64,000 nt of DNA from NCBI GenBank assembly GCA_007126095.1, contig SLBZ01000003.1:16345-80344 (forward strand). Reading direction: 5' to 3'. The DNA is from Aquisalimonas sp. (GTDB lineage Bacteria; Pseudomonadota; Gammaproteobacteria; Nitrococcales; Aquisalimonadaceae). Under the pieces are notes generated by a model. The model did not search any database and was not told the origin of the DNA. It saw nothing but the letters and a program-made list of their open reading frames with translations. This document shows, one piece after another, positions 14,974 to 31,719 of this stretch. Position numbers and translations under genes: made by a program. Within the stretch, counting starts at the first letter, position 1, and each line of letters starts with the position of its first letter.

Positions 14974-15064
14974 CGATTGTGGATTCCCGGCTGCCTTTCT
15001 CTGCCGCCTGTGGCAATTGAGGGTTATGCTCAGGGCAGGCCCATCGCTCAGGGAGTTCATTGGC

Positions 15065-16369
15065 ATGACTGATATCAGGCACATTTTCGTGATCGGCCTC
15101 GACGACTTCAACCTCAGCGAGCTGAAGACGGTTCGCAATGCCGGGGACTACACGTTCCACGGTCTTGTGGACTACGACACCATGGTCAACCCGCCCAGCT
15201 ACCCGATGGACGCCATCATGGCGGAGGCGCGCCAGACCCTGGCCGCCGCCCCGGCCGTGGACGGCATCATCGGCCACTGGGATTTTCCCACCACCTCCAT
15301 GCTGCCGATCCTGCGGCGCGAGTGGGGGCTGCCAACGCCGACGCTGGAGAGTGTGCTGTACTGCGAGAACAAGTACTGGAACCGGCTGGCCGGGGAAGAG
15401 GCCCTGCCCGAATGCACGCCGGACTTCCAGGGGCTGGATCCATACTCCGATGACCCGCTGGGTGATCTGGACATGGACTACCCTTTCTGGCTGAAGCCGT
15501 CGGTGGCGTTTTCCTCCTATCTGGGTTTTCGCATCGAGAACGAGCAGCAGTACCTGCAGGCCATGCAGACTATCCGCGAACGCATCCACGTGTTCGCGGA
15601 GCCGTTCGATTACATCATGCGCTCCTGCGAGAACCCCGGGGTGCTGCCCGGCCGTGGCAGCGGGGCCACCTGCATTGCCGAGGGGCTCATCAGCGGGCGC
15701 CTGTGCACGCTGGAAGGGTATGTCTACGACGGCGAGGTGGTGGTCTACGCGGTGGTGGATTCGCTGCGCGCCTCCAACCAGGTCAGCTTCTACAGCTACC
15801 AGTATCCGTCACACCTGCCGCCGGGGGTGCAGAACCGCATGATCGCCCATGCCGGGCGGATCCTGGATCATATCGGCATGGACCACACGCCGTTCAACAT
15901 GGAGTTCTTCTGGGAGGAGGCCACGGACAAGCTCTGGCTGCTGGAGATCAATCCGCGCATCTCGAAGTCCCACTGCCCGATCTTTCAGATCGCCACGGGG
16001 TCCTCGCACCACGAGGTAGCCATCGATATCGCGCTGGGCCGCAGACCGGATTTTCCGCGCGCCGAGGGGCGTTTCCCCATGGCCGGCAAGTTCATGCCAC
16101 GGGTGTTCGGCGATACCGTGGTCACGCGGGTGCCGTCGGCGGACGACATCGCCATGCTACAGAAGCAGCACCCGGAGGTGATCGTCCACGTCGGCGTGGA
16201 CGAGGGGATGCGTCTGTCGGAGCTGGTCGCGCAGGACAGCTACAGTTTCGAGATCGCCGACGTGTTCCTGGGCGCGGACAACGAGGAGGCGCTGCACGAG
16301 AAATTCCGTTACGTCATGGAGGTGCTCGACTTCCAGTTCGCGGACGTGGTGCCCACCAACTACAGCTGA
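15065..16369 (+). CDS. ATP-grasp family ligase (carboxylate-amine type)
   Basis: A 434-residue protein with an N-terminal Rossmann-like domain (IRHIFVIGLDDFN) and an ATP-grasp domain from about residue 100 to 330. The ATP/metal site is visible as FWLKPSVAFSSYLGF (lysine), YIMRSCENPG and LLEINPRISKSHCP near residue 291, which has the Glu-x-Asn metal ligands. The C-terminal 90 residues resemble the final domain of biotin carboxylase-like proteins. Such enzymes activate a carboxylate as acyl phosphate and join it to an amine or thiol. The start MTDIRH is chosen over an upstream in-frame ATG because it begins the first beta strand. It lies on the same strand as the M20 peptidase and CocE-like hydrolase, and converges with the GNAT gene with a 10-bp overlap. 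Substrates unknown. Confidence 0.85.
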   Translation: MTDIRHIFVIGLDDFNLSELKTVRNAGDYTFHGLVDYDTMVNPPSYPMDAIMAEARQTLAAAPAVDGIIGHWDFPTTSMLPILRREWGLPTPTLESVLYCENKYWNRLAGEEALPECTPDFQGLDPYSDDPLGDLDMDYPFWLKPSVAFSSYLGFRIENEQQYLQAMQTIRERIHVFAEPFDYIMRSCENPGVLPGRGSGATCIAEGLISGRLCTLEGYVYDGEVVVYAVVDSLRASNQVSFYSYQYPSHLPPGVQNRMIAHAGRILDHIGMDHTPFNMEFFWEEATDKLWLLEINPRISKSHCPIFQIATGSSHHEVAIDIALGRRPDFPRAEGRFPMAGKFMPRVFGDTVVTRVPSADDIAMLQKQHPEVIVHVGVDEGMRLSELVAQDSYSFEIADVFLGADNEEALHEKFRYVMEVLDFQFADVVPTNYS

Positions 16370-16908
16370 TGGGCCGCCCGGTACTCCCGGTCGAGCATGG
16401 AGAGCACATGCATGGAGAGGAAGCGGTCGCCCTTGCGCACGCTCTCGCGGGCGACGCCCTCCTCCACGAAGCCGAGACGACGGTAGAGATTGAAGGCGCG
16501 CCGGTTGTCACGGGCGACGTTCAGCCAAAGCCGGTGACACCCCAGCACTTCGAAGCAGTCGTGCGCCGCGAGCAGCACCGCGTTGCGGCCATGGCCGCGC
16601 CCCTTGCTGATGATGGCAATGCGCCGCAACAGCACGCTGCCGTTGGGGTCGTCCGTGTCTTCGAGTACCACGTAGCCGATCGGCGTACCGCGGTGCTCGA
16701 TGATCCAGTGCCGGGTCCCCGGCAGCGTCAGCGCGGCGCGGTGCTGGGCCTCGCTCCACTGCTCCACGTGCCGGGCGTTGTCCGGGTGGCGCTCCACTTC
16801 CACGACAAAGGAGCAGTCGTCCGGGGTGGTCGCCCGCAGGGTCATGCCGCCGCGCCGGATCGGGGCCCGGGCGTCCGCGGGGCGGTTTTCGGCATCTGCT
16901 CTGCTCAT
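16360..16908 (-). CDS. GNAT-family N-acetyltransferase
   Basis: A 182-residue acetyltransferase. Motif A is LRRIAIISKGRGHGRNAV, with the acetyl-CoA pyrophosphate loop KGRGHGR at 102-108, and the C-terminal part (LNVARDNRRAFNLYRRLGF) is typical of the RimI/RimJ branch that acetylates N-terminal or side-chain amines. It sits on the minus strand between two plus-strand genes of the ATP-grasp/peptidase group. Overlap with the ATP-grasp gene end and a short divergent gap to the M20 gene suggest it belongs to the same functional set, but this is inference. Confidence 0.85.
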   Translation of the reverse strand: MSRADAENRPADARAPIRRGGMTLRATTPDDCSFVVEVERHPDNARHVEQWSEAQHRAALTLPGTRHWIIEHRGTPIGYVVLEDTDDPNGSVLLRRIAIISKGRGHGRNAVLLAAHDCFEVLGCHRLWLNVARDNRRAFNLYRRLGFVEEGVARESVRKGDRFLSMHVLSMLDREYRAAHQL

Positions 16909-16942
16909 GGCGTCAGGATATCACCGTGAGGTCCTGTGGAAA

Positions 16943-16972
16943 TTGACCGTTGCGCGAAGGTGGGCCAATACT
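16943..16972 (+). promoter_or_regulatory. Possible promoter for the M20 peptidase gene
   Basis: TTGACC (16943-16948) and AATACT (16967-16972) with an 18-bp spacer lie in the divergent gap between the GNAT and M20 genes. The -35 is good and the -10 matches four of six positions. Confidence 0.35.
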
Positions 16973-17003
16973 AGCTCAAAGACGGCGATAGGATGGCGCA
17001 GCC

Positions 17004-18305
17004 ATGGCGAGACGAAGCTCCTACGTTGATATCGACAGGATTCGCGACCGCCTGGTATCGCTGATCCGCATCCCCTCGATTACCGGCGAGGAAGACGCCG
17101 CAGTCTCCCATATTGCCAACTGGCTGCAGCAGTTCGACGCCGAGATCGATTACTGGAACGACGGCATCGCCTCCCTCCAGCGTGATCCGCGCTATCCGGG
17201 CCACGAAGTGGAGCGCGCCTGGGCGCCGGTGGTGGTGGGGGTGCTGCGAGGCGAGCAGCCCGGGCCGAGTGTGTTGCTCACCGGACACGTGGATGTGGTG
17301 CCACCCGGTGACTACACGCGCTGGCAGGATGAGCCCTTCTCCGGTGTCACCCGCGGCGACCGCGTTTTCGGCTGTGGCGCTTCCGACATGAAGTCCGGGC
17401 TGGTGGCCGCCATGGCCTGTTTCGAAGCCTTTGCCGAGAGCGGCCGCAACTTCCCGGGGCGCATCATCTTCGCTGCCGTGCCGGCGGAGGAGGACAGCGG
17501 ACTGGGCACCCTGGCCGCCATCCGCGGCGGTTGGCAGGCCGATGCCTGCATCATCCCCGAGCCCACTAACGGCGCCAGCGGAGTACCCGAGCTGGTGATC
17601 GCCCATGCCGGCGCCATGTCGCTCCGAATCCGGGTGCCGGGAAAATCTGCTCATGCGAGCAAACGCCTGCAGGGTGAGAGCGCGCTGGATCACTTCTTCA
17701 CCATCTACCAGGCCATGCGCGAGGACGAGCGGCGGCTCAATGAGCGCGAGCAGCATCCCTTGATGGCCGTCCACCCGCTACCCTACGCCACCAACGTGGG
17801 CACCATTCAGGGTGGTCTGTGGTCGTCCAGCGTCATGGATCACCTCGAGGCGCACGTGCGCGTGGGGGTCGCCTTGGGGGAGACCATCGATGAGGCCGAG
17901 GCGCGCGTCCGAGACACCATCATGGAGCAGATCAAGAACGACCCCTGGCTGCGGGAGAATCCGCCACGCATCACCCGTCTGGCGTCCGGATTCGGCTCCG
18001 CCCAGACCCGCCGTGATCATCCGCTGGTGGAGGCGCTGGCGGAATCGGCCGAAGAGGAGTTCCGCCGCACGCCCGAAGTGGCCGCCGTTCCTTACGGCTG
18101 CGACATGTCGGGCTGGGTGCGGCTTGCGGGTGTGCCCACGGTGATCTATGGGCCGGGCGAGATCGACCTGGCGCATGCCCCCAACGAGTCCGTCTCCCTT
18201 GAGGCCACCTACAAGGTCGCCCGCACTCTGGTCAAGACCACCGAACGCCTGCTGGAGATGGACCCGGCGAGCATGCAGCTCATTCCCGACGACCCGGTCC
18301 CTTAG
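17004..18305 (+). CDS. M20-family metallopeptidase (ArgE/DapE/carboxypeptidase type)
   Basis: A 433-residue zinc hydrolase. The first metal site is GHVDVVP (His95), the bridging aspartate is in GASDMKSG (Asp128), and AEEDSG (162-163) carries the catalytic glutamate and a metal ligand. The dimerisation domain is in the middle (GKSAHASKRLQGESA). Family members remove N-acyl groups from amino acids or cut dipeptides and C-terminal residues. No signal peptide is seen. Neighbouring ATP-grasp enzymes make amide bonds, so this protein could trim or recycle their product. The CocE-like gene follows 41 bp downstream. Confidence 0.9.
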   Translation: MARRSSYVDIDRIRDRLVSLIRIPSITGEEDAAVSHIANWLQQFDAEIDYWNDGIASLQRDPRYPGHEVERAWAPVVVGVLRGEQPGPSVLLTGHVDVVPPGDYTRWQDEPFSGVTRGDRVFGCGASDMKSGLVAAMACFEAFAESGRNFPGRIIFAAVPAEEDSGLGTLAAIRGGWQADACIIPEPTNGASGVPELVIAHAGAMSLRIRVPGKSAHASKRLQGESALDHFFTIYQAMREDERRLNEREQHPLMAVHPLPYATNVGTIQGGLWSSSVMDHLEAHVRVGVALGETIDEAEARVRDTIMEQIKNDPWLRENPPRITRLASGFGSAQTRRDHPLVEALAESAEEEFRRTPEVAAVPYGCDMSGWVRLAGVPTVIYGPGEIDLAHAPNESVSLEATYKVARTLVKTTERLLEMDPASMQLIPDDPVP

Positions 18306-18346
18306 GGGAGGGCGGCGCGGCGGGTCATTGCTACAGGAGACGCGTC

Positions 18347-20380
18347 ATGAAGGTGGTTGAATCCTTCCCGGAAGGGGTGAAGGTGGTCGAGAACGTCTGG
18401 ATCCCCATGCGCGATGGCGTGCACCTCGCCGCTCGCCTGTGGATGCCGGAGGACGCCGAACAAACCCCGGTGCCGGCCATTCTCGAGTACATGCCCTACC
18501 GCAAGCGCGATTTCACCCGCCTGCGCGACGAACCGCTGCACCACTACTTCGCCGGCCATGGCTACGTCGGCGTGCGCCTGGATGTGCGCGGAACCGGCGA
18601 CTCGGAAGGTATTCTCCGCGACGAGTACCTGGAGCAGGAACAGGATGACGCCGTTGACGCCATCGCCTGGCTCACCTGCCAGCCTTGGTGTGACGGCAGC
18701 GTCGGCATGATCGGGCTGTCCTGGAGCGGCTTCAACTCGCTGCAGGTGGCCGCGCGGCGGCCTCCGGCGCTAAAGGCGATCATTACCATGTGCTCCACCG
18801 ATGACCGCTACGCCGACGACGCTCACTACAAGGGGGGCTGCCTGCTCAACGAGAATTTTGTCTGGGGCTCCGCCTTCTTCTCCCTGAACGCGTGCCCACC
18901 CGACCCGTTGATCAGTGGCGATCGCTGGCGGGATCAGTGGCTGGAGCGGCTGCAGAAGAACCGGCTTTTCCCGGCACTGTGGATGCAGCACCCCCATCGC
19001 GACGACTACTGGAAGCACGGCTCCGTGTGCGAGGACTACGGCGCCATACAGTGTGCCGTCTACGCCGTGGGCGGATGGGCGGACGGCTACGCGAATGCCA
19101 TCCCGCGGCTGATGAAGGGGCTGAGCGCACCGAAGAAAGCATTGATCGGACCCTGGCCGCACGCCTTCCCCCACGCCGCCGAGCCGGGGCCGCAGATCGG
19201 CTTCTTTCAGGAGGCGGTGCGCTGGTGGGACTACTGGCTCAAGGGGATTGATACGGGGATCATGGACGAGCCCATGGTGCGTGCCTGGATGGAGAGCTGG
19301 ATTCAGCCCGCGCCCTATCACGCCGAGCGGCCCGGGCGCTGGGTGGCGGAGGATACATGGCCGTCGCCGCGTATCAGCGCGCGTCGCTGGTTCCTGAACG
19401 TGCTGTCTCTGGGCGACGCTGCCGCCGACGCGGACGCGGTGCGGGTCCGCGCCCCGCAGACCACGGGGCTGCGCGGCGGGGACTTCTACGGTTACGGCGC
19501 CGACGGCGACGCCCCCCTGGACCAGCGGGCCGACGACGGCAAGTCGCTGGTGTTCGATTCCGATCCCCTGGCCGAGCCGGTGGAGATCCTCGGCGCGCCG
19601 GTGGTCACCCTCGACCTCGCCGCGGATAAGCCGGTGGCCTTCGTCATCGTACGCCTCAACGACGTGGCCCCGGACGGCGGTTCCAGCCGGGTGAGCTACG
19701 GTGTGCTCAATCTCACCCACCGCGACAGCCACGAGCACCCGGAGCCGCTGGTTCCCGGCGAGCGCTACCGCGTGCCCATCCGGTTGAACGACATCGGTTA
19801 CTCGTTTGCGCCCGGCCACACCATCCGCGTGGCCGTGTCCACCACCTACTGGCCCATGCTGTGGCCGGCGCCGGAGCCGGTGGAGCTGACCGTATTCACC
19901 GGTGCCAGCACCCTGGAGCTGCCAGTGCGCCCGCCGCGCGCCGAGGACGAGATGCTGCGCCCGTTCGACGCACCCGAACGCGGCCCGGTCTCCGACCATA
20001 CGCCGCTGGAGTGGGCCCAGGCACAGCGGATGGTGGAGCTGGACCTGGCCACGGACGAGACGGTCTACACCACCTTCGGCGACGGCGGCGATTTCGGTGG
20101 CGCCGCGCTGGCGCGCATCGAGGATATCGACCTCACCATCGGCTACACGATCCGCCGCACCTTCCGCATCGGCGAACACGATCCGCTGTCTGCTCGCGCC
20201 GAAGTGGAGCAGAAGACCATCCTGCGACGGGGCGCGTGGTCGGTGCGCATTGCGTGCCGGACCACGCTCACCGCAGACGCCTGCAGCTTCCGCGTGAAGG
20301 CGACCCAGGATGCGTTCGAATCGGGCGAGCGCATCTCCAGCCGCGAATGGGACGAGACAATACCGCGCCGTTTGCTCTGA
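18347..20380 (+). CDS. CocE/NonD family hydrolase (S15 X-Pro dipeptidyl-peptidase type)
   Basis: A 677-residue protein. The N-terminal alpha/beta-hydrolase domain has the nucleophile elbow GLSWSGF (Ser near 126), an aspartate in GGWADGY and a histidine in GPWPHA. The C-terminal half is the jelly-roll domain seen in cocaine esterase and X-prolyl dipeptidyl peptidases. The start is supported by AGGAGA (18335-18340). It has no signal peptide. With the M20 gene it forms a likely bicistronic hydrolase pair. Peptide, amide and ester substrates are all possible. Confidence 0.88.
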   Translation: MKVVESFPEGVKVVENVWIPMRDGVHLAARLWMPEDAEQTPVPAILEYMPYRKRDFTRLRDEPLHHYFAGHGYVGVRLDVRGTGDSEGILRDEYLEQEQDDAVDAIAWLTCQPWCDGSVGMIGLSWSGFNSLQVAARRPPALKAIITMCSTDDRYADDAHYKGGCLLNENFVWGSAFFSLNACPPDPLISGDRWRDQWLERLQKNRLFPALWMQHPHRDDYWKHGSVCEDYGAIQCAVYAVGGWADGYANAIPRLMKGLSAPKKALIGPWPHAFPHAAEPGPQIGFFQEAVRWWDYWLKGIDTGIMDEPMVRAWMESWIQPAPYHAERPGRWVAEDTWPSPRISARRWFLNVLSLGDAAADADAVRVRAPQTTGLRGGDFYGYGADGDAPLDQRADDGKSLVFDSDPLAEPVEILGAPVVTLDLAADKPVAFVIVRLNDVAPDGGSSRVSYGVLNLTHRDSHEHPEPLVPGERYRVPIRLNDIGYSFAPGHTIRVAVSTTYWPMLWPAPEPVELTVFTGASTLELPVRPPRAEDEMLRPFDAPERGPVSDHTPLEWAQAQRMVELDLATDETVYTTFGDGGDFGGAALARIEDIDLTIGYTIRRTFRIGEHDPLSARAEVEQKTILRRGAWSVRIACRTTLTADACSFRVKATQDAFESGERISSREWDETIPRRLL

Positions 20381-20421
20381 CCCCGGACATGCCGCGTCGT
20401 GCCGGGCCGGACCATCGCGCG

Positions 20422-21450
20422 CTACAGGCCGTAGCGGCGGCGTGCCGCCTCCAGGATCATGCGCAGTAGATCGCCGTAGCTGTGGCCGCCCCAGCCGGCC
20501 ATGATCGCCAGCTTGCCGTCGGGATTCCAGCTGGGGTTGAAGTTGGCGTCCAGCAGCCGGGGCACGCCGTCGGCGCCGGCGCGGAAGTCGATCCGCGCGT
20601 AGTCGCGGAGACCCAGGCGTTCGAATAGCCAGATGGCCTGCTCCACCATGGCCGCTTCCGTGCCGGCATCCAGCTCTGCGCGCCGGAACCGCAGTGCCTG
20701 CCAGTAGGGGGAGTCGGGGTCGCATTTGGAGCCGTAGGAGAGTATCGGCGGCAGGGACGGATCCAGCCGGCTGTAGTCGATCTCCAGGAGCGGCAGCACG
20801 GTCAGGCCCGTGCCCGGGTTACCCACCAGGCCCAGGGTGTATTCCGTGCCGGTCAGGAAGTCCTGGATCAGCGCCCGTGGCCTGGGGGTGGTGGCCTCGC
20901 CCGCCAGATGGTGCAGGCACGCCAGGGCCTCGGCCGCGTCATGCACCACGGACCGCGGTGACACGCCCAGGCTGCCGCAGCCGTCGTTGGGCTTGATCAT
21001 CGCCGGGTAGAGTGCCGGCAGCGCCAGCGGATCGGCATGCAGGTCCACCACCGTCTCGTTGGGCACCGGAATCCCGTGACTGGCGGCCAGCAGCCGCACC
21101 AGGGCCTTGTCGGCGCATACGGCCATGCTGCCCGACGGCGCGCCGGTGTACGGGATCTCCAGCAGTTCCAGAAGTGCCGGCACGTTGGGTTCGTGGTGCA
21201 GCAGGTTGCGGTAACCGGTATCGCAGAAGTTGAGGGCCAGATCCGGCGGGACCCGCCGCAGCGTGTCCAGTAGCGCCGAGTGGTTGTTGAGTGCCACGGC
21301 GCTGTAGCCGTCCAGCGCATTCACCGTGGTGACGGCGGTCTCCGCGGCGACACGGTCCTCCTGGCTGAAACGGCCGTCCACACCGTAGCTGTAGGGCAGC
21401 TCCGGATCGCCGCTGAGAACGCCGACGGTCAGTGCGCGCGCTGCAGTCAT
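20422..21450 (-). CDS. ATP-grasp ligase, D-alanine-D-alanine ligase-like
   Basis: A 342-residue ATP-grasp protein resembling D-Ala-D-Ala ligase in layout: an N-terminal domain ending near NFCDTGYRN, PNVPALLELLEIPYTGAP, the ATP-binding lysine in MIKPNDGCGSLGV and a C-terminal site LLDANFNPSWNP that supplies the metal-binding Asp/Asn. It is not a housekeeping Ddl: the Ddl N-terminal loop is absent, and its ATG overlaps the stop of the transglutaminase gene by four bases. It is the last gene of the five-gene minus-strand operon. It probably joins an amino acid or similar amine to a carboxylate; which one is unknown. Confidence 0.85.
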   Translation of the reverse strand: MTAARALTVGVLSGDPELPYSYGVDGRFSQEDRVAAETAVTTVNALDGYSAVALNNHSALLDTLRRVPPDLALNFCDTGYRNLLHHEPNVPALLELLEIPYTGAPSGSMAVCADKALVRLLAASHGIPVPNETVVDLHADPLALPALYPAMIKPNDGCGSLGVSPRSVVHDAAEALACLHHLAGEATTPRPRALIQDFLTGTEYTLGLVGNPGTGLTVLPLLEIDYSRLDPSLPPILSYGSKCDPDSPYWQALRFRRAELDAGTEAAMVEQAIWLFERLGLRDYARIDFRAGADGVPRLLDANFNPSWNPDGKLAIMAGWGGHSYGDLLRMILEAARRRYGL

Positions 21451-22343
21451 GGGCTGTCCTCGCTGTCGAGTCGTTGCACGTGCACCGCCACTTGGCTGCG
21501 CTGGCCCTGGCTGCCGCCGAAGATCACGCCCTTGAGTGGTGATACGTCGCCGTAGTCGCGCCCCCAGGCCGTGGTGATGTGCTGCTGCGCTGGCATGCGG
21601 TTGTTGGTGGGGTCGAAAGCGATCCAGCCCAGTGACGGATCATAGGCGGCGAACCACGCGTGGGAGGCGTCGGCGCCGATCAGGCGGGCCCCGCCGCCCT
21701 CCGGGGCGGTCTCCACGTAACCCGAGACGTAGCGGGCGGCGATGCCCAGGCCGCGGAGGCAGGCGATGGCCAGGTGGGCGAAGTCCTGACAGACGCCGCG
21801 CCGTTCCCGGAAGACCCGCTCCAGCGGCGTGCTGATGGTGGTGGCCGCGGGGTCGTAGGCGAAATCCCCGTGTATCCGGCCCATGAGGTCATGGACCGCC
21901 TCGGGCAGGCGCCGGCTGGGGACGAACGATGTCCTGGCGTAGTCCGCCAGGGCCGGTCTCGTTTCCACCAGTGGCGAGTCCAGCAGGAACTCTCGCGCCC
22001 CCAGTGCCGCCGCCGAGGTGCCTCCTCGCGTTTCCGCCATGGCCTGCTCCCATGGCAGCCCCTGCTTGCCGGCAACCGGATCGGCCGGCACCTCCAGGGA
22101 GACGTCCGTGGTTGCCGTGACCGCGAGCTGGTCGTGGGGCCGTTGGATGGTGAAGTGGGTGACGTGGTTGCCGTAGTAGTCCACGCGCTCGGAGCTGTAG
22201 TCGGGCCGCGGCGCGATGGTGAGATCGTGGGCGAGAATCTGCTGGGTCGGCGTGGGCCGGGGCGCGAGATGTGTTTCGTTGTAGCTGCGGCTGATGGCCT
22301 GGGGGTAGTGGTACTCGGTACGGTGCGTGATCCGGTATCTCAT
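21447..22343 (-). CDS. Transglutaminase-like cysteine protease
   Basis: A 298-residue protein with the bacterial transglutaminase N-terminal beta domain (RYRITHRTEYHY) and a papain-like core. The catalytic triad is complete: Cys185 in RRGVCQDFAH, His228 in ADASHAWF and Asp244 in FDPTNN. Such proteins may act as proteases or amide-exchanging enzymes. No signal peptide is seen. It overlaps the upstream fusion gene and the downstream ATP-grasp gene by 4 bp each, so the three should be made in similar amounts. Genes of this family commonly lie beside circularly permuted ATP-grasp and alpha-E genes, whose joint function is not established. Confidence 0.9.
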   Translation of the reverse strand: MRYRITHRTEYHYPQAISRSYNETHLAPRPTPTQQILAHDLTIAPRPDYSSERVDYYGNHVTHFTIQRPHDQLAVTATTDVSLEVPADPVAGKQGLPWEQAMAETRGGTSAAALGAREFLLDSPLVETRPALADYARTSFVPSRRLPEAVHDLMGRIHGDFAYDPAATTISTPLERVFRERRGVCQDFAHLAIACLRGLGIAARYVSGYVETAPEGGGARLIGADASHAWFAAYDPSLGWIAFDPTNNRMPAQQHITTAWGRDYGDVSPLKGVIFGGSQGQRSQVAVHVQRLDSEDSP

Positions 22344-24880
22344 GTCTGTTCACCCCCGCGGTCACCAACCGGGTCCAGCTGCCGCGGACCCTGTGGATCC
22401 GTGAAGTAAGCGGCGGCCAGGGCACGCGCCGCCTGACCGAGCCGGTCCGCCGTCCGCCGGAGCAGGGAGTCCAGGGCATCGCGCCGCCCACCGTCTCCCG
22501 GAAGAAGGGCCTCGGGGTCACTCAGGCGCAGGCTGGTGCGGGCGTCCAGCACCGGACGCTGATGGGCGCTCAGCCGGTCAGGTGCTCCGGCCGCCGGCAG
22601 CGAGGCGAGGCGGGACTCCAGGCGGGCGAGCTGAAAGCCCACCGCACGGGGATTGGTCTCGCTCGACAGCACCAGCTGCAGCACGGTCTCCGGCCGGGGT
22701 TGCCGGTGGTGTTCCCGGTGGTAGGCGTTGAGGCTCTCCAGGTGCTCGAGCACGGCATCCAGCAGGCGCGGCTCGTCGGGTGTGTCCAGTGGTGTCACCA
22801 TGACGGCGCGCAGGAACGCGCTGGTCAGCAGGCCGCGCTCGAGGCAGCGGCCCGTCTCCAGGAAGCTCCAGGAGCGGCTGTGCACCATGGTGTCCTCCTG
22901 CAGGCCCCGGAATGCCGCCAGCAGGGTGATGAGCTCGTCCAGGATCGCCGGGAGATCGTCCACCGGTAACGGCGACGGCAGCTCCGCGAGACGGCGACGG
23001 ATGGTGCCGATGACCCGCCAGGTGTCGGGCGCGAGCCGGTCGCGCACGGCGTGCGAGGCGGCCATCATGGCGTTGAAGTTGAACGCCACGGTGCCGGTCC
23101 GGCTGTCGTCCTGAAGCAGCGCCACCAGCGCGTCGTCAGCCGGGTCGCGCCGGAGCGTGTCACCGGCCTGTCCGCTGATCGCCGCCAGTCCGGCCAGGAG
23201 CTGCCGCAGCGGGGCTCCGGTTCCGGCGCCCACGTCGCTGGCCCGCAGCCGCAGGATGATCCGCAGCAGGCGCAGGCTCTGTTCCGCACGTTCGGCGTAG
23301 CGCGCCATCCAGAACAGGTTCTCCGTGGCGGCGGGCGGCAGGGCCGCTGAGCGGTCGGTGGGCCCGTCTTCCGTGACCTCCGGTGTCAGCAGCGCCGCTT
23401 CGCGCACCGGCTCGGAGGCGATGACCCAGGTGTCCTTGGACAGTCCACCGGCCTGGTTGGACACGCTGGCGTCGTTCGGGTGGCCGGTGACCCGGGTGAG
23501 CCCACCGGGCATGACGGCGTAGCCGTCGGGGCGGCCTACAAGAAAGGTGCGCAGCACCGCGAGCCGGGGCTCGAGGCCGGGCTCGCCGAGCGTGGGCACG
23601 GACGAGAAGCGGCCCTGCTCCTGGCCCACGTAGCGGTGGGGAGCCTGGCGGATGCGGGCGATGAGCGCATCGCGACCGGCGGCGTCCAGCGTGCCCGGGA
23701 ACACCGCCGGTTCTCCGGCACGCCGGTCGATGGGCTTGATCACCAGGGTCTCAAGTCGCGCCAGCACCTGTTCGCATGACTCCGGATCGCCACACCACCA
23801 CGTCGGCAGGCCGGGCAGCGCCAGCTCCTGTCCCAGCAGGTGCCGGGCAATGCCCGGCAGAAAGGCGTGCAGTGCGGGATTCTCCAGGATGCCGGCGCCG
23901 AGCGGGTTGGCGATGGCAACCCGACCCCGGCGGGCGACTTCGGTCAACCCGGGGACGCCCAGCAGGGAGTCGGGCCGGAGCTCCAGGGCGTCGCAGTAGT
24001 CGTCGTCGAGGCGGCGAAGGATGACGTCCACCGGCTCCAGGCGGCCCATGGAGCGCAGCCAGACGCGGCCGTCGCGCACGGTGAGGTCGCCCCCTTCCAC
24101 CAGGGTGTAGCCCAGGTAGCTGGCGAGGAACGCATGCTCGAAGTAGGTCTCGTTGAGCGGCCCGGGTGTGAGCACGACCACATGCGGGTCGTCCCGGTCG
24201 CGCCCGGGCGCCAGGCCGGACAGCGTGGCGCGCAGATTCTGGAAGAACAGCGCCAGCCGGTGCACGTGGGACTCCCGGAACAGGCTGGGCAGCGTCCGCG
24301 CCATGACGACCCGGTTCTCCAGCGCGTACCCGGCGCCGGAGGGCGACTGGGTGCGGTCGCCGATGACGCGCACCGTCCCGTCGGGGCCGCGGGCCAGATC
24401 GGCGGCGTACAGGGTCAGGGGGTGCGCCAGATCGGTGCGATAGGGATGGCAGGGGCGCAGAAAGCCGTCGTGCCCGTGAACCAGCTCCGCCGGCAGCAGG
24501 CCGCGGGTCAGCAGTTCCTGGTCGCCGTAGAGGTCCTGGAGGACGCGGTTGAGGAGCTCCGCACGCTGTTGCAAGCCGTGTTCCACCCTGCCCCATTCCG
24601 CGCTGTCGATGAGGACCGGTACCGGGTCCAGATCCCACGTGCGCTGCAGGCCGTGCGGGTCACCGTAGACGTTGTAGGTGACCCCCCGCTCGCGGAGGAT
24701 GCGGCGCACCTGCTCCCGCCGTTGCCGGAGCGCGTCCGGGCCGAGTGCATCCAGGGCATCCGCCAGGTAGCGCCAGCTGCCGGTCACGCCGCCACCCGCG
24801 TCGACCATCTCATCGTGGTGCCCCTGCAGGGGGCGGTAACCGGACAGAAGCGTGGAGGATGGTGTTGCAGACATGGGCAT
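22340..24880 (-). CDS. Fusion of circularly permuted ATP-grasp and alpha-E domains
   Basis: An 846-residue two-domain protein. Residues 1 to about 500 are a type 2 circularly permuted ATP-grasp (VTYNVYGDPHGLQRTW, VVLTPGPLNETYFEHAFLA, SKDTWVI). Residues about 520-846 are an alpha-E helical domain starting at NLFWMARYAERAEQSLRL. It is paralogous to the separate ATP-grasp and alpha-E proteins encoded just upstream. Two sites differ from that paralogue: GDRTQSPSGAGYALENR replaces EDNLRVPSGVSYMMENR, and the lysine-containing loop reads VIKPIDRRAGEPAV rather than VVKPANESGGYGM. It could therefore have another substrate or reduced catalysis. An alternative start lies two codons downstream. Confidence 0.88.
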   Translation of the reverse strand: MPMSATPSSTLLSGYRPLQGHHDEMVDAGGGVTGSWRYLADALDALGPDALRQRREQVRRILRERGVTYNVYGDPHGLQRTWDLDPVPVLIDSAEWGRVEHGLQQRAELLNRVLQDLYGDQELLTRGLLPAELVHGHDGFLRPCHPYRTDLAHPLTLYAADLARGPDGTVRVIGDRTQSPSGAGYALENRVVMARTLPSLFRESHVHRLALFFQNLRATLSGLAPGRDRDDPHVVVLTPGPLNETYFEHAFLASYLGYTLVEGGDLTVRDGRVWLRSMGRLEPVDVILRRLDDDYCDALELRPDSLLGVPGLTEVARRGRVAIANPLGAGILENPALHAFLPGIARHLLGQELALPGLPTWWCGDPESCEQVLARLETLVIKPIDRRAGEPAVFPGTLDAAGRDALIARIRQAPHRYVGQEQGRFSSVPTLGEPGLEPRLAVLRTFLVGRPDGYAVMPGGLTRVTGHPNDASVSNQAGGLSKDTWVIASEPVREAALLTPEVTEDGPTDRSAALPPAATENLFWMARYAERAEQSLRLLRIILRLRASDVGAGTGAPLRQLLAGLAAISGQAGDTLRRDPADDALVALLQDDSRTGTVAFNFNAMMAASHAVRDRLAPDTWRVIGTIRRRLAELPSPLPVDDLPAILDELITLLAAFRGLQEDTMVHSRSWSFLETGRCLERGLLTSAFLRAVMVTPLDTPDEPRLLDAVLEHLESLNAYHREHHRQPRPETVLQLVLSSETNPRAVGFQLARLESRLASLPAAGAPDRLSAHQRPVLDARTSLRLSDPEALLPGDGGRRDALDSLLRRTADRLGQAARALAAAYFTDPQGPRQLDPVGDRGGEQT

Positions 24881-24941
24881 GGTGGCCGTGCGGCGGTGAT
24901 GCCGTCAGCATAACCCGGTTGGGGCGGGCCTGTGCTACCCG

Positions 24942-25892
24942 TCAGCCGTCCACGGGCACCGCGTCCGGGTCCAGATGGAACCAGGTGCTGGTGAGCTGTT
25001 CGTGGATCTCGCCGATGCCCGCCTGGAGCACGTCGATGTAGGCGTGCAGGTCATCCATGCTCATGTCCCGTGGTTCGGCCTCGTTGATGCGCCGCTGCAG
25101 CCGGCCGACGCGGCGCAGGGTGGCCTCGTTGCGGGGCAGGGCCTGGATGCACGCCTCGGCGACCGTGATGTTGTGGTCCACGGAGCGGGGAAAGGGGGTG
25201 TCCTGCAGGAGAAAGCGCACCACGTCGTGGCTGACCACCCGCGGGTGCACGTGCTGACGGTACATCTGGTAGGCGGACAGGGACTTCAGCACGTGGACCC
25301 AGAGCACGTTGGCGTACTCCTCCGGGATATCCTCCCGGGGCATGAGCACGGCCACGGCACTGTCGACGATGCGGGTAGTCATGTCCGCCCGCTCCAGGCT
25401 CTGGCCGAGTCGCACGAAATCGTACGCCGAGTCGTGGCTCATGGTGCCCGCCAGGGCCCCACTGATCTGCTGGCAGCGGAAGATCACCGTGTGCAGGAAT
25501 TCGAATCGGTGACGCCTGGCCAGGGAGCGCTGGACGTGATCGCGCACGTACAGATAGAGGCGGTTCATGTCCTCCCACGCTTCCGTGGGCAGGAGCTCGC
25601 GGGTGGTGCGCACGTTCTCGCGGGCGGCGCGCACGGAGGTTAGCACCGAGCCGGGATTGAACGTGTCGGCGAGCAGGAACTTCACCACGTTGCGCTCGTC
25701 GTAGTTCTTGTAATGACCGGCGAAGGCGTCGCGCGCACCGGTGATGTCCGCCAGTTCCTCCCAGCCGCCGCGCATGCTCACCGGCAGGTCCATGACCTCG
25801 TTGCTGTGGGCGCCCACCAGCCGCGCCATGCTCTCGGCGCGCTCCAGGTAGCGCCCCATCCAGTAAACCCGTTCCGCGACTCTCGACAGCAT
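24942..25892 (-). CDS. Alpha-E domain protein
   Basis: A 316-residue all-helical protein of the alpha-E family (formerly DUF403). It opens with MLSRVAERVYWMGRYLERAESMARL, in which the conserved arginine and glutamate pattern is clear. A second similar segment (FVRLGQSLERADMTTRIVD) sits near residues 160-180. No enzymatic activity is known for this family; it almost always accompanies circularly permuted ATP-grasp proteins and is thought to assist them. It begins three bases after the stop of the ATP-grasp gene and is followed 61 bp later by the fusion gene. Confidence 0.88.
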   Translation of the reverse strand: MLSRVAERVYWMGRYLERAESMARLVGAHSNEVMDLPVSMRGGWEELADITGARDAFAGHYKNYDERNVVKFLLADTFNPGSVLTSVRAARENVRTTRELLPTEAWEDMNRLYLYVRDHVQRSLARRHRFEFLHTVIFRCQQISGALAGTMSHDSAYDFVRLGQSLERADMTTRIVDSAVAVLMPREDIPEEYANVLWVHVLKSLSAYQMYRQHVHPRVVSHDVVRFLLQDTPFPRSVDHNITVAEACIQALPRNEATLRRVGRLQRRINEAEPRDMSMDDLHAYIDVLQAGIGEIHEQLTSTWFHLDPDAVPVDG

Positions 25893-25895
25893 GGC

Positions 25896-27347
25896 TCAGG
25901 CGTCTCCGTTATCCACGATCCAGGTGTCCTTGCTGCCGCCACCCTGGGAGGAGTTCACCACGGTGGAACCCTTGCGCAGCGCCACGCGGGTCAGGCCGCC
26001 GGGGGTGACGTACATGTCGTCGCCCTGGAGGATGAATGGCCGCAGATCCACGTGCCGCGGCTCGACGCTGCCGTCCACCACCGTGGGCACCGTGGACAGG
26101 CGGATCAGCGGCTGTGCGATGTAGTTGCGCGGCTCGTTGCGGATCAGCCGTGCGAAGTGCTTGCGGTCCTTCTTGGTGGCCGTGGGCCCGATCAGCATGC
26201 CGTAGCCGCCGGACTCGTTGGCCGGTTTCACCACCAGCTCGTCCAGGTGGTCGAGCACGTACTGCCGCTCGTCGTCCAGGTAGCAGCGATAGGTGGGCAC
26301 GTTCGGCAGGATCGGCTCCTCGTTGAGATAGTAGCGGATGAAATCCGGCACGAAGGCATAGACCACCTTGTCATCGGCAACACCGGCCCCCGGCGCGTTG
26401 GCCAGGCCCACGTTGCCCTTGCGCCAGGCGCGCATGAGCCCGGGGACGCCCAGCACGGAATCCTTGCGGAACGCTTCAGGGTCCAGGAACAGGTCATCGA
26501 TGCGGCGGTAGATCACATCCACCCGCCGCGGTCCGTCGATGGTCCGCATGTAGACGCAGTCGTCGCTGCCCACCACCAGATCCGAACCTTCCACCACCTC
26601 GGCGCCCATGTGCTGGGCCAGGAACGAATGCTCGAAATAGGCGGAGTTGTAGATGCCCGGGGTCAGCACCACCACCTCGGGGTAGTCCATGGGCCGGGGC
26701 GACAGGGCCGCGAGCATGTCGAACAGTTTGGTAGGGTAATCGCCCACGGGCTGGATGCTGGTGTTCTCGAACAGTTCGCCGAACACCCGCTTGGTGAGCA
26801 CCCGGTTCTCCATCATGTAGGACACGCCGGAGGGCACCCGCAGGTTGTCCTCCAGCACCATGAAACGGCCCTCATGGTCGCGGATCAGGTCCGAGCCGCA
26901 GATGTGGGCCCACACGTCCTGGGGCGGCCGCACGCCCACGCACTCCTTGCGGAAGTTCGCGGAATTGTCCAGCAGGGTGCGCGGGAACACGCCGTCGTGG
27001 ATCACCGCCTGTTCGCCGTAGATATCGGCGATGAACAGGTTCAGCGCTTTCACCCGTTGCCGGAGCCCGGCGTCCACACTGCGCCATGTGGCGGCGTCGA
27101 TGATCCGCGGGATGATGTCGTAGGGCCATGCGCGGTCGATGTTCTCGCCTTCGGAATAGACGGTGAACGTGATGCCCATCTCCAGGATGGCCAGTTCCGC
27201 GGCGTGCTGGCGCTCGTGGATCTCGTCGGTGCTGAGGGAGTCGAGGTAGGTGAGGAGTTCCCGCGCGGGAGGCCGGACCTGGCCGCCGGAATCGATGAGT
27301 TCGTCGTGAAACCCGGGATTCTCGTACGCCTGCCAGTTGATGGCCAT
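25896..27347 (-). CDS. Circularly permuted ATP-grasp ligase
   Basis: A 483-residue protein, first gene of the minus-strand operon. Family motifs are intact: TFTVYSEGENIDRAWPYD, MVLEDNLRVPSG (Glu and Asn metal ligands), VVLTPGIYNSAYFEHSFLA, VVKPANESGGYGM (ATP-binding lysine and glycine loop) and the C-terminal SKDTWIV. Relatives are predicted to be peptide-bond or amide-forming ligases that work with alpha-E and transglutaminase-like proteins. The substrate is unknown. The gap upstream (27348-27494, 147 bp) must hold the operon promoter; no strong consensus is obvious there. Confidence 0.9.
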   Translation of the reverse strand: MAINWQAYENPGFHDELIDSGGQVRPPARELLTYLDSLSTDEIHERQHAAELAILEMGITFTVYSEGENIDRAWPYDIIPRIIDAATWRSVDAGLRQRVKALNLFIADIYGEQAVIHDGVFPRTLLDNSANFRKECVGVRPPQDVWAHICGSDLIRDHEGRFMVLEDNLRVPSGVSYMMENRVLTKRVFGELFENTSIQPVGDYPTKLFDMLAALSPRPMDYPEVVVLTPGIYNSAYFEHSFLAQHMGAEVVEGSDLVVGSDDCVYMRTIDGPRRVDVIYRRIDDLFLDPEAFRKDSVLGVPGLMRAWRKGNVGLANAPGAGVADDKVVYAFVPDFIRYYLNEEPILPNVPTYRCYLDDERQYVLDHLDELVVKPANESGGYGMLIGPTATKKDRKHFARLIRNEPRNYIAQPLIRLSTVPTVVDGSVEPRHVDLRPFILQGDDMYVTPGGLTRVALRKGSTVVNSSQGGGSKDTWIVDNGDA

Positions 27348-27494: not shown

Positions 27495-29129
<1,635 letters not shown>

Positions 29130-29264
29130 TGTTTCCTCCTCCGTTGCTGACGGATCGTTGTTCTGTCACGCACTGCGCCTCGTCCTGCGCAGGTATGACG
29201 CCTTTGCCCGAGCAGTCTGACATCTTGGCCGGTCCGATAACTCCCCGGACGCGTTAATGCAGTA

Positions 29265-29280
29265 TCAATGGAAGTATTGA
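29265..29280. promoter_or_regulatory. Inverted repeat in the divergent acyl-CoA control region
   Basis: TCAAT-N6-ATTGA is a perfect inverted repeat in the 245-bp gap between the ligase and dehydrogenase genes. It could be an operator for a TetR- or GntR-type regulator controlling both directions; no regulator gene is adjacent. Confidence 0.3.
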
Positions 29281-29374
29281 CCGAATCCGCGAAAGTGTCT
29301 TGTCGGTGAGGGGGTTCGCGAACCGGTCTCGCCGTGGCATGCTCCGGCGTGGACCAATGAAGGAGAACATCGGC

Positions 29375-30553
29375 ATGACGGATCTTGAGACCTTCCGCCG
29401 CGAGACGCGGGAGTGGCTGGACGCGAACTGTCCCGAGAGCATGCGCACCCCCATGCAGAGCGATGATGACGCCTGCTGGGGCGGGCGCAAGTGGACGTTC
29501 CAGAGCGAGGACCAGCGCCTGTGGCTGGAGCGCATGGCCGCGCGCGGCTGGACCGCCCCGGACTGGCCGACGGAGTACGGCGGTGGCGGGCTGAACAAGG
29601 ACGAGCACAAGATCCTGCGTCAGGAGATGGCGCGGATTCAGGCGCGTTCGCCGTTGAACAGCTTCGGGGTGTGGATGATCGGCCCGGCCATTCTGAAGTT
29701 CGGCTCCGAGGCGCTGAAACGCCAGCACCTGCCGCCCATCGTCCGTGGCGAGATCCGCTGGTGCCAGGGGTACAGCGAGCCCGGCGCCGGTTCCGACCTG
29801 GCCGGCTTGCAGACGAAGGCGGAGGACAAGGGCGATCACTTCATCGTCAACGGCCAGAAGATCTGGACCTCCTACGCCGACAAGGCGGACTGGATGTTCT
29901 GCCTGGTGCGCACCAACCCGGATGCCAAGAAGCAGGCGGGCATCAGCCTGGTGCTGTTCGACATGGAAACTCCGGGCGTGAGCACCCGGCCGATCACCCT
30001 CATCTCCGGCAGCTCGCCGTTCTGCGAGACGTTCCTGGACAACGTCCGCGTGGAGAAAGATCAGGTGGTCGGCGAGGTGGACCAGGGCTGGACCATCGCC
30101 AAGTACCTGCTCACCCACGAGCGCGAGATGATCGGTGGCTTCGGCCGCACGGCCGCCGGCAGCAAGACGCTGGCCGAGCAGGCCGTGGACGCCATCGGCC
30201 TGGACAACGGCCGGCTGGCCGACGACATGCTGCGCGCCGAGGTGGCCCAGTGGGATCTCGACGCCCGTGCCTTCGAGCTAACCGCCGAACGGGTGAGCGC
30301 CCAGGCCAAGGCCGGCCAGGGCGTTGGTGCGGCGTCCGCCATGCTCAAGTACTACGGCACCGAGCTGAACAAGCGCCGGCAGGAGCTGCTGATGGCGCTG
30401 AACGGCACCGACGCCCTGTACTGGGAAGGCAAGGGCGGCTTTGACGGGTCCATGCCGCGGCACTGGCTGCGGTCCAAGGGCAATTCCATCGAGGGCGGCA
30501 CGTCGGAGATCCAGCTCAACGTGATCGCAAAGAACATCCTGGAGCTTGGCTGA
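29375..30553 (+). CDS. Acyl-CoA dehydrogenase, large-subunit type
   Basis: A 392-residue flavoprotein. It shows GWTAPDWPTEYGGGG, the FAD/substrate loop WCQGYSEPGAGSDLAGL, WTSYADKADWMFCLVRT and the C-terminal SIEGGTSEIQLNVIAKNIL. Pairing with a second, more divergent dehydrogenase gene 1 bp downstream matches heteromeric dehydrogenases such as those acting on pimeloyl-CoA or steroid side chains. It introduces an alpha-beta double bond into an acyl-CoA. ATG 29375 has AAGGAG upstream; an earlier in-frame ATG at 29357 is less likely. Confidence 0.9.
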   Translation: MTDLETFRRETREWLDANCPESMRTPMQSDDDACWGGRKWTFQSEDQRLWLERMAARGWTAPDWPTEYGGGGLNKDEHKILRQEMARIQARSPLNSFGVWMIGPAILKFGSEALKRQHLPPIVRGEIRWCQGYSEPGAGSDLAGLQTKAEDKGDHFIVNGQKIWTSYADKADWMFCLVRTNPDAKKQAGISLVLFDMETPGVSTRPITLISGSSPFCETFLDNVRVEKDQVVGEVDQGWTIAKYLLTHEREMIGGFGRTAAGSKTLAEQAVDAIGLDNGRLADDMLRAEVAQWDLDARAFELTAERVSAQAKAGQGVGAASAMLKYYGTELNKRRQELLMALNGTDALYWEGKGGFDGSMPRHWLRSKGNSIEGGTSEIQLNVIAKNILELG

Positions 30554-30554
30554 C

Positions 30555-31697
30555 ATGGCGACGCTGGTACTCAATGAAGAACAACAGATGCTCAAGGACG
30601 CGGCGCGCGGATTCCTGCAGGAGCGGGCGCCGATTGCCGAATTCCGTCGCCTGCGGGATACGCGCGATGCCACCGGGTTCTCCCGCGATGTCTGGGCCGC
30701 CATGGTTGAACAGGGCTTTGCGGGCACGCTGATACCCGAGGCCCACGGCGGTTTCGCCTTCGGCCACGTGGGCATGGGGCAGATCATGGAAGAGAGCGGG
30801 CGGACGCTGGCACTGTCACCCCTGCTGAGTTCGGCCGTGCTGGGTGTCTCCGCCCTCACCCTGGCCGGGTCCGAGGCGCAACAGGCGGATCTCCTGCCGG
30901 CGGTGGGCCAGGGCGAGCTGCTGCTGGCCCTGGCCGTGGACGAGTCCGGCCGGCATGATCCCGAGTGCATCCGCACCCGCGCCGAACACAATGGCAGCGG
31001 TTACACCCTGAACGGCTGCAAGACGTTCGTGCTCGACGGCCACGTTGCGGACCGGCTGATTGTGGCCGCGCGCACGTCCGGTGATGCGCGCGCCACCGAT
31101 GGCGTGACCCTGTTCCTCGTGAATCCGGACACGGCGGGCGTCGAGGTGGAGCGCACGATCATGGTGGACGCCCGCAATGCCGCCGAGGTGCGCTTCAATG
31201 ATGCGGAAGTGCCGGCGGACGCGGTGCTCGGGCGGGTCGATGAGGGGCTGCCGGTCCTGGAACAGTTGCTGGATATCGGCAACGCGCATCTGGCCGCGGA
31301 GCTGCTCGGTCTCACCCAGGAGGTGTTCGAGCGCACGGTGCAGTATCTCAAGGAGCGCAAGCAGTTCGGCGTGGCCATCGGCTCGTTCCAGGCGCTGCAG
31401 CACCGGGCGGCGGACCTGTTCAGTGAGATCGAACTGCTGAAATCCGCGGTGGTCGCGGCGCTGTCGGCCCTGGACGAGGGCGACGACCATGCGGATCAGC
31501 TCTGCAGTCTCGCCAAGGCCCGGGCATCGAAGGTGGCGGAGCTCGCCACCAACGAGGGCGTGCAGATGCATGGCGGCATGGGCATGACCGACGAGTTCGA
31601 CGTGGGTCTGTTCCTCAAGCGCGCCCGCGCGGCTCAGCAGACCTTCGGCGATCAGCGGTACCACGCCCGGCGTTTCGCGCGTCTGCGCGGTTACTGA
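30555..31697 (+). CDS. Acyl-CoA dehydrogenase, small-subunit type
   Basis: A 380-residue acyl-CoA dehydrogenase fold protein with weaker motifs than its neighbour: the FAD loop reads ALAVDESGRHDPECI, but the C-terminal helices (YLKERKQFGVAIGSFQALQH; QMHGGMGMTDEFDVGLFLKRA) are well kept. In heteromeric pairs such a subunit often contributes only part of the active site, so the two products probably work as a complex. The ATG begins 1 bp after the upstream stop. The crotonase gene follows 22 bp later. Confidence 0.87.
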   Translation: MATLVLNEEQQMLKDAARGFLQERAPIAEFRRLRDTRDATGFSRDVWAAMVEQGFAGTLIPEAHGGFAFGHVGMGQIMEESGRTLALSPLLSSAVLGVSALTLAGSEAQQADLLPAVGQGELLLALAVDESGRHDPECIRTRAEHNGSGYTLNGCKTFVLDGHVADRLIVAARTSGDARATDGVTLFLVNPDTAGVEVERTIMVDARNAAEVRFNDAEVPADAVLGRVDEGLPVLEQLLDIGNAHLAAELLGLTQEVFERTVQYLKERKQFGVAIGSFQALQHRAADLFSEIELLKSAVVAALSALDEGDDHADQLCSLAKARASKVAELATNEGVQMHGGMGMTDEFDVGLFLKRARAAQQTFGDQRYHARRFARLRGY

Positions 31698-31719
31698 AGT
31701 CCTGCAAGGGAGACGGCAC

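Follow-up and report, generated by a model that had tools for sequence, protein, structure and literature searches.

Gene clusters in which ATP-grasp ligases stand beside peptidases are well known as a type, and few of their products are established. The cluster for the osmolyte N-acetylglutaminylglutamine amide (NAGGN) has its GNAT acetyltransferase and its ATP-grasp in one protein, accompanied by an asparagine-synthase-type amidotransferase and an M42 peptidase, and the mycosporine cluster places the ATP-grasp MysC with the Ddl-like MysD, with MysA and MysB alongside. A further kind unites circularly permuted ATP-grasp (CP-ATP-grasp), alpha-E and transglutaminase genes with Anbu or DUF2126 genes; the available excerpts of two papers on the Anbu operon cite Iyer et al. 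2009 for such clusters (PMC6376114, PMC5666114). We analyzed a 64,000-nucleotide stretch of an Aquisalimonas sp. genome (GCA_007126095.1, SLBZ01000003.1; hereafter the window), which is part of contig C31 of a 3.3-Mb draft that is 95.5% complete, and which carries four ATP-grasp genes among nine closely spaced genes at 15065-27347. These nine genes are two neighbouring systems, and the border between them differs from the strand border. System 1 consists of the ATP-grasp proteins A434 and A342, an acetyltransferase and two hydrolases; system 2 consists of the CP-ATP-grasp, alpha-E and transglutaminase genes. We propose, at about even confidence, that system 1 runs a make-and-break cycle whose product, a short peptide or other small soluble amide, probably serves in coping with salt, and that system 2 is a separate neighbour. 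The genes are as follows.

15065..16369, plus strand: A434, ATP-grasp protein, 434 residues (Pfam ATP-grasp_4, E 8.9e-11); system 1
16360..16908, minus strand: GNAT acetyltransferase, 182 residues (Pfam GNAT, E 3.5e-13); system 1
17004..18305, plus strand: M20 deacylase or peptidase of ArgE/DapE type, 433 residues (Pfam Peptidase_M20, E 1.9e-35); system 1
18347..20380, plus strand: CocE/NonD (S15) hydrolase, 677 residues (Pfam Peptidase_S15, E 7.8e-66, plus PepX_C); system 1
20422..21450, minus strand: A342, D-Ala-ligase-like ATP-grasp protein, 342 residues (Pfam Dala_Dala_lig_C, PF07478, E 9.4e-10); system 1
21447..22343, minus strand: transglutaminase-like protein, 298 residues (Pfam Bact_transglu_N, PF08379, and Transglut_core, PF01841); system 2
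22340..24880, minus strand: CP-ATP-grasp/alpha-E fusion, 846 residues (CP_ATPgrasp_2, PF14403, E 1.7e-149, and Alpha-E, PF04168, E 2.8e-61); system 2
24942..25892, minus strand: stand-alone alpha-E protein, 316 residues (Pfam PF04168, E 6.9e-85); system 2
25896..27347, minus strand: CP-ATP-grasp protein, 483 residues, first gene of the minus-strand run (Pfam PF14403, E 1.4e-165); system 2

All nine open reading frames are present at these coordinates and each label is backed by Pfam, so that the genes, strands and labels of the original prediction are borne out by the reading-frame listing together with Pfam and NCBIfam, as is its count of four ATP-grasp proteins and two alpha-E domains. The longest frame of A434 begins at 15017 (TTG); the ATG at 15065, the start chosen earlier, agrees with the homologues. 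In the run of five minus-strand genes, 3 base pairs (bp) separate the CP-ATP-grasp and alpha-E genes and 61 bp precede the fusion gene, and the last two junctions are 4-bp overlaps, the final one shared by the transglutaminase and A342 genes. Gaps between genes nowhere exceed 95 bp, which leaves little space for a hidden precursor gene, small reading frames having had no separate search. The G+C content is 0.66-0.71 over the nine genes and 0.64-0.72 over the window. The term "island" applied to these genes before is thus not to be read as a break in composition.

Comparison across related genomes defines the border between the two systems. A set of 59 genomes (own included) was searched with A342 and A434, 40 regions were extracted, and the window genes were mapped onto them by tblastn; a protein was scored as present when its best match was at least 50% identical for A342 and at least 60% for A434 (genomes, loci and contigs are numbered G, L and C). 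Of these genomes, 17 have both proteins, 4 have A342 without A434, 2 have A434 without A342, and 36 lack both, giving a Fisher p of 3e-9 from hand counts that are not corrected for relatedness. Orthologues of A434 in the relatives are 62-88% identical. The two genes lie on one contig and at most 12 kb apart in 11 of the 17 genomes, counting G037, whose contig carries only the end of A434; in G009, G035, G039 and G042 they are on different contigs of drafts, where a linkage may be concealed. The link between A342 and A434 is strong, though not obligatory. The complete block A434-GNAT-M20-CocE-A342 is found in the window, G001, G004, G022, G005, G045, G019 and G025 (families f1, f4 and f5), and only the first three of these have alpha-E genes alongside it; G022, G005, G045, G019 and G025 have the block without them. 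The GNAT gene adjoins A434 in G001, G004, G022, G005, G045, G031, G019 and G025. By tblastn mapping, GNAT was not seen in G033, nor CocE in G031. An M1 peptidase gene is inserted into the block of G004 and G045, and the A434, M20 and CocE copies of G045 are interrupted.

The genes of system 2 are distributed differently. Alpha-E is above the Pfam cut-off in 18 of the 59 genomes, 9 of which also have A342, and the two show no significant association (p 0.15). Adjacency of the two systems is limited to four of these nine genomes (the window's, G001, G002 and G004), all of one genus. The alpha-E genes are far from A342 on long contigs in G019, G022 and G038, which belong to other genera, and on separate contigs in G025 and G009, adjacency in G009 being undecided. 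Conversely, G003, a one-contig genome of the window's genus, has system 2 and no A434 or A342 orthologue. Since A342 co-occurs with the plus-strand genes, it is grouped with system 1 and the strand border is the wrong place to cut. The original prediction had proposed co-occurrence of the plus-strand genes with the minus-strand operon as its test, and the answer is divided: the plus-strand genes travel with A342 and not with the alpha-E, CP-ATP-grasp and transglutaminase genes. Its grouping of two further ATP-grasps, the GNAT and two hydrolases is supported by the recurrent block.

DUF2126 content and gene order are the further grounds for separating the two systems. The cluster of G003 reads CP-ATP-grasp, alpha-E, transglutaminase-DUF2126 (1099 residues), transglutaminase-DUF2126, CP-ATP-grasp/alpha-E fusion and transglutaminase, and is flanked by the same acyl-CoA ligase gene as in the window. 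The fusion protein of the window has an orthologue there at 66% identity, and its transglutaminase corresponds, at 63% identity, to the last gene. G006 and G011 have the same layout by tblastn (CP-ATP-grasp, alpha-E, two transglutaminase-bearing genes, fusion, transglutaminase). The window, in which CP-ATP-grasp, alpha-E and transglutaminase genes stand in one run as in the Anbu/DUF2126-type clusters, shares these families and their order, and differs in having no Anbu gene and no DUF2126: PF09899 has no match in the 95.5% complete genome, and the window matches it nowhere except in the transglutaminase part common to both. System 2 of the window is therefore a reduced form of a known cluster, minus the two transglutaminase-DUF2126 genes; the only two alpha-E places found in the genome are those in this island. 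The short Anbu type, with CP-ATP-grasp and alpha-E next to Anbu, is present in G007, G012, G019, G022, G025, G026, G038 and G048. In the window's genome, PF00227 has one strong place (C37, E 1.2e-25), presumably HslV, in a search that overlooked the tblastn-found Anbu genes of G012, G026 and G048 (3 of the 8 genomes); an unlinked Anbu gene may thus lie elsewhere in this genome. Weak second matches to the proteasome family at G001:C1:1512712-1513257 (E 4e-6) and G003:C1:3476432-3476974 (E 2e-6) are possibly Anbu genes far from alpha-E. A transposase-like gene (HTH_38/rve, L183:16294-17319) lies just past the alpha-E cluster of G003, roughly where system 1 lies in sister genomes.

The two ligases of system 1 were compared with solved structures by means of AlphaFold models, which were built from window and named-locus proteins. 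The predicted local distance difference test score is 90.5 for A434 and 93.6 for A342. The modeled fold of A434 is that of an L-amino-acid-ligase-like protein: the L-amino acid ligase 3vot is among its best Foldseek matches, with a template modeling (TM) score of 0.71-0.73, as are RizA and BacD, although phosphoribosylglycinamide synthetase and biotin carboxylases fit about equally well by E-value. It has the overall fold in common with the L-amino acid ligases RizA, BL00235 and BacD (TM 0.63-0.73), but is only 13-16% identical to them over the structural match, and a sequence search with A434 retrieved no solved chain at E 0.01. A342 is modeled with the fold of D-Ala-D-Ala ligases, which match it with TM scores of 0.67-0.77 and 18-24% identity among the 50 best Foldseek matches. 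Its match to PF07478 is above the Pfam cut-off, yet it falls well under the curated NCBIfam cut-offs for D-alanine-D-alanine ligase (83.2 bits against 243, and 62.7 against 245.65). It also differs from that enzyme in its nearby hydrolases or, in relatives, its fusion to a methyltransferase. Alignment positions K144, E294 and N296 of A434 and K115, K153, D288 and N303 of A342 are invariant, and we take these to be nucleotide- and metal-binding positions.

A conserved protein of 300-318 residues is encoded near A342 in L109 (13171-14124), L131, L143, L147, L149 and L153. It occurs in 3 of the 59 relatives, all of one genus, and CocE is present in 5 of its 6 loci. The L109 copy was scanned and has no Pfam match. 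When the 318-residue form (c22) was considered as a third ATP-grasp, its KP-motif region gave a faint match to A342 (E 0.013 over 50 columns) and E 0.54 against A434.

The remaining members of system 1 are readily assigned to families. The M20 protein scores 258 bits against TIGR01910 (cut-off 217.6), has 3pfo as its nearest solved chain and is conserved close to A434 across loci. CocE scores 266.6 bits against TIGR00976 (cut-off 66.3), is related to the solved cocaine esterase and alpha-amino-acid ester hydrolase, and is convergent to A342 in many loci. Additionally, contig C97 of the window's genome holds a paralogous set, CocE', A434' and A342' (L083:2136-7516), along with a homologue of an L081 gene that Pfam assigns to Peptidase_C26, a family that includes gamma-glutamyl hydrolases. 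With this second set, the genome may run two cycles with different substrates. In Halomonas, a PF05618 gene directly follows the second CocE gene in L114 (by Pfam scan), L116, L118 and L120; according to the excerpts available of one report, Rlo peptidases, which are relatives of this gene, are tied to osmotic stress in Pseudomonas (PMC12239564).

The occurrence of two amide ligases beside an acetyltransferase, a deacylase of the ArgE/DapE type and a hydrolase of the S15/CocE type is most simply read as a cycle that builds and drains a pool of a small amide or peptide. We infer the following reactions, their order, their substrates and the osmotic role from these assignments. A434 would activate a carboxylate as an acyl phosphate and couple it to an amine, A342 would append a second residue, and the GNAT would acetylate a free amine. 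M20 could then take the acyl group off and CocE/S15 cut the amide or ester, so that the pool would rise or be drained in step with salinity. The molecule made would most likely be a compatible solute, either free or in conjugated form. More tentatively, the system may make a new class of compatible solute, assembled by ligases that form peptide bonds: A434 and A342 would produce a short peptide, perhaps N-acetylated, or a conjugate of acids of the ectoine or betaine type, some lineages would add a modification by an EctC domain with an altered iron site (see below), and dedicated M20 and CocE hydrolases would drain the pool at falling salinity.

The NAGGN cluster resembles system 1 in using a GNAT, an ATP-grasp and a peptidase for a peptide-type solute. 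In the island, by contrast, the GNAT is not joined to an ATP-grasp, and by Pfam the peptidases belong to M20 and S15. TIGR03103, presumably the model of the NAGGN GNAT-ATP-grasp fusion, is absent from the listed NCBIfam matches of A434 and the GNAT and from the best 25 of 28 matches of A342. No member of the MysA or MysB families is found by Pfam among the nine genes, a comparison made at the level of families and not of the mycosporine gene sequences. No paper on the A434/M20/CocE/A342 set was among those listed by our searches of open-licence literature.

The association with salt comes from paralogues of A434. At 12 loci, two of which are from strains of one species and two nearly identical, an A434 paralogue carries an N-terminal domain resembling ectoine synthase (EctC). 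Halospina, Halovibrio, Vreelandella utahensis (two strains) and a metagenome-assembled Halomonas genome share the arrangement EctC-A434 fusion, CocE, M20, CocE and A434, facing A342 and CocE. Three fusions were scanned with Pfam Ectoine_synth (PF06339), with E-values of 1.5e-44 at one of these loci, 9.6e-39 in G330 and 9.5e-40 in G053. Others were identified by tblastn in G034, G383, G396, G392 and G393, the last four through long EctC frames among 146 relatives of G330. The same locus contains M20 in 10 of the 12 cases, CocE in 9 and A342 in 5. A tree was built from 67 A434 sequences, after removal of 16 named loci that duplicate other A434 genomes and of any match that spanned fewer than 380 residues or contained a stop. 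All 12 fusions form one clade in it (support 98/90), most simply explained by a single fusion. The fusion seems undescribed, as ectoine synthase and ATP-grasp were not mentioned together in the open-licence literature searched. The excerpts available of one paper do mention solitary EctC-type proteins with an unclear role (PMC5924519).

A second context is found in G105, where genes for a glycine/sarcosine methyltransferase, a sarcosine/dimethylglycine-type methyltransferase, a ProV-type ATPase, a permease and an OpuAC betaine-binding protein are followed, in this order, by A434 and CocE. The first methyltransferase scores 505 bits (cut-off 350), the second 413 bits, under its cut-off of 550, and 2 bp separate the OpuAC gene from the A434 start. 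Judged by these family matches, the genes before A434 look like glycine betaine synthesis and import. Additionally, a sample of 321 genomes from the class, the window's own among them, has A434 (E 1e-30) in 16 genomes and EctC (E 1e-10) in 44, and 7 genomes hold the two together (p 0.0025, without correction for relatedness). An MscS-type channel gene adjoins A342 in two genomes of the genus Nitrococcus and lies about 2 kb from an A434 gene in G038, which is weak support for a salt role. Taken at the level of sequence, the paralogue context points to a tie between the A434 family and salt adaptation. The peptide tag suggested in the original prediction finds no direct support, and the same context leads instead to compatible-solute chemistry.

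The range of A342 was examined by scanning named genomes with an A342 alignment, from which we kept the best 80 of 169 candidate loci (L103-L182); some genomes bear two handles, among them L103/G004, L104/G002 and L135/G001. CocE is present in 38 of these 80 loci and a methyltransferase domain precedes A342 in another 38, with neither in 4 and both in none. A434 is found in 16, M20 in 13 and GNAT in 5; 3 loci contain the alpha-E fusion gene. In many Halomonas loci system 1 is represented just by A342 and one or two CocE genes. Named isolates that combine A342 and CocE come chiefly from Halomonas and related genera, Nitrococcus, Halospina, Halovibrio, Ferruginivarius, Thiohalobacter, Thiohalophilus, Aquisalimonas and Halorhodospira, genera that are halophilic or marine. 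The methyltransferase form, of about 650 residues with an S-adenosylmethionine-dependent methyltransferase in front, occurs in Alphaproteobacteria, Planctomycetes and others (among loci L134-L182), and was checked by Pfam in L138, L139 and L140. Its methyltransferase is 28% identical to glycine/sarcosine methyltransferase over 104 residues (pair E 3e-7), compared to E 0.12 with sarcosine/dimethylglycine methyltransferase. In L160 the methyltransferase-A342 gene adjoins a GNAT-histone-deacetylase-like fusion gene, which has relatives in L166 and L182. In Halospina, Vreelandella and Halovibrio, CocE has a neighbour of 1,850 residues that was considered as a synthetase and rejected, as it is UvrA-like (scanned in L121).

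Several observations weigh against a salt-related cycle in the window. Within system 1 itself, A342 is far from A434 on one contig in G036 and G038, although A434, GNAT, M20 and CocE are still grouped in the latter, and the 4-bp overlap of the A342 and transglutaminase genes makes some joint expression with system 2 likely in the genus. Both the EctC fusions and the betaine neighbourhood involve paralogues of A434 and not orthologues of the window's protein, which sits in a different clade from the fusions. Neither an EctC nor a betaine-synthesis gene is found in the window, and the sole EctC match of the genome is on contig C36, outside system 1. Two fusion loci (L099 and L248, in G034 and G053) have none of M20, CocE and A342. 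The fused domains are also altered: the iron ligands of ectoine synthase are Glu-57, Tyr-84 and His-92, and replacement of His-92 by alanine leaves 12.7% activity in the genuine enzyme, according to the excerpts available (PMC6344544). Glu-57 and Tyr-84 are kept in all 12 fused domains, but His-92 is replaced in every one, by Tyr (5), Ile (4) or Val (3), compared to five of five stand-alone EctC proteins that keep all three, a comparison of five proteins where 53 of the 59 genomes have an EctC match. Thus, ordinary ectoine synthesis by the fused domain is unlikely; it resembles EctC at PF06339 E-values of 1e-38 to 1e-44 in the three copies scanned, and differs in lacking His-92, in being joined to a ligase and in lying outside the window. 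The betaine neighbourhood is confined to one genome, with A434 at E 1e-60 absent from 75 others, 12 of the G105 family, and 9 of the 16 A434 genomes in the class sample are without EctC. Finally, names are the basis for the salt preference of the relatives; halophiles make up most of the order, with EctC in 53 of 59 relatives, so that the range could reflect shared descent.

Among the alternatives, the best surviving is that system 1 makes a bioactive or signaling di- or tripeptide by a bacilysin-like logic, with the hydrolases serving self-protection or recycling and no role in salt. The place of 3vot, RizA and BacD among the best structural matches of A434 is in keeping with it, as is a siderophore-type IucA/IucC gene (L238:13833-15659) that immediately precedes the EctC-A434 gene of G330 in the same orientation. 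That gene is found in no other genome among loci L063-L253, where it stands beside a single EctC-A434 fusion, and a siderophore cluster was rejected for this reason. No exporter appears among the annotated neighbours, which are a selection of all neighbours, and such a peptide does not predict the ectoine-synthase and betaine links; we regard this alternative as doubtful.

Salvage or detoxification is less probable still. Here M20, CocE, M1 and C26 would degrade peptides that are damaged or taken up from outside while the ATP-grasps form gamma-glutamyl or other amine conjugates, as in polyamine use. The Peptidase_C26 homologue in the paralogous set of the window's genome would fit, as would the solved relatives of the GNAT, which are aminoglycoside, spermidine and diamine acetyltransferases, and the M1 aminopeptidase inserted in three clusters. 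Two ligases per cluster and the ectoine-synthase fusions, however, suit synthesis better, and no amine oxidase or aminotransferase is seen among the annotated neighbours, most neighbours being unannotated. The M1 gene itself lies between M20 and GNAT in L064, L068 and L089 (Pfam on L089).

The single nine-gene pathway of the original prediction, in which all ATP-grasps, alpha-E, transglutaminase, GNAT and hydrolases make or edit one conjugated peptide or protein tag, draws on the position of A342 at the end of the minus-strand run, overlapping the transglutaminase gene in the genus, and on the adjacency of both sets in the window, G001, G002 and G004, but we rejected it as very improbable on the co-occurrence data, namely the p of 0.15, the five genomes of other genera with both sets and none seen adjacent (G009 undecided), the fusion gene beside A342 in just 3 of the best 80 of 169 loci, all Aquisalimonas, and system 2 alone in G003.

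Beyond system 2, the window contains an acyl-CoA ligase gene (27495-29129) that scores 825.5 bits against the NCBIfam 3-(methylthio)propionyl-CoA ligase (cut-off 822), with divergent acyl-CoA dehydrogenase and enoyl-CoA hydratase genes beside it (29300-32571). By family assignment, the genes at 27495-32571 are possibly for breakdown of dimethylsulfoniopropionate.

The picture of this locus is thus corrected, as the alpha-E cluster alongside is a separate system. For the proposed make-and-break cycle of system 1, the EctC fusion and the betaine-gene neighbourhood give the A434 family a testable role, in salt adaptation, and the isolated halophiles that carry the set are where its product could be sought.

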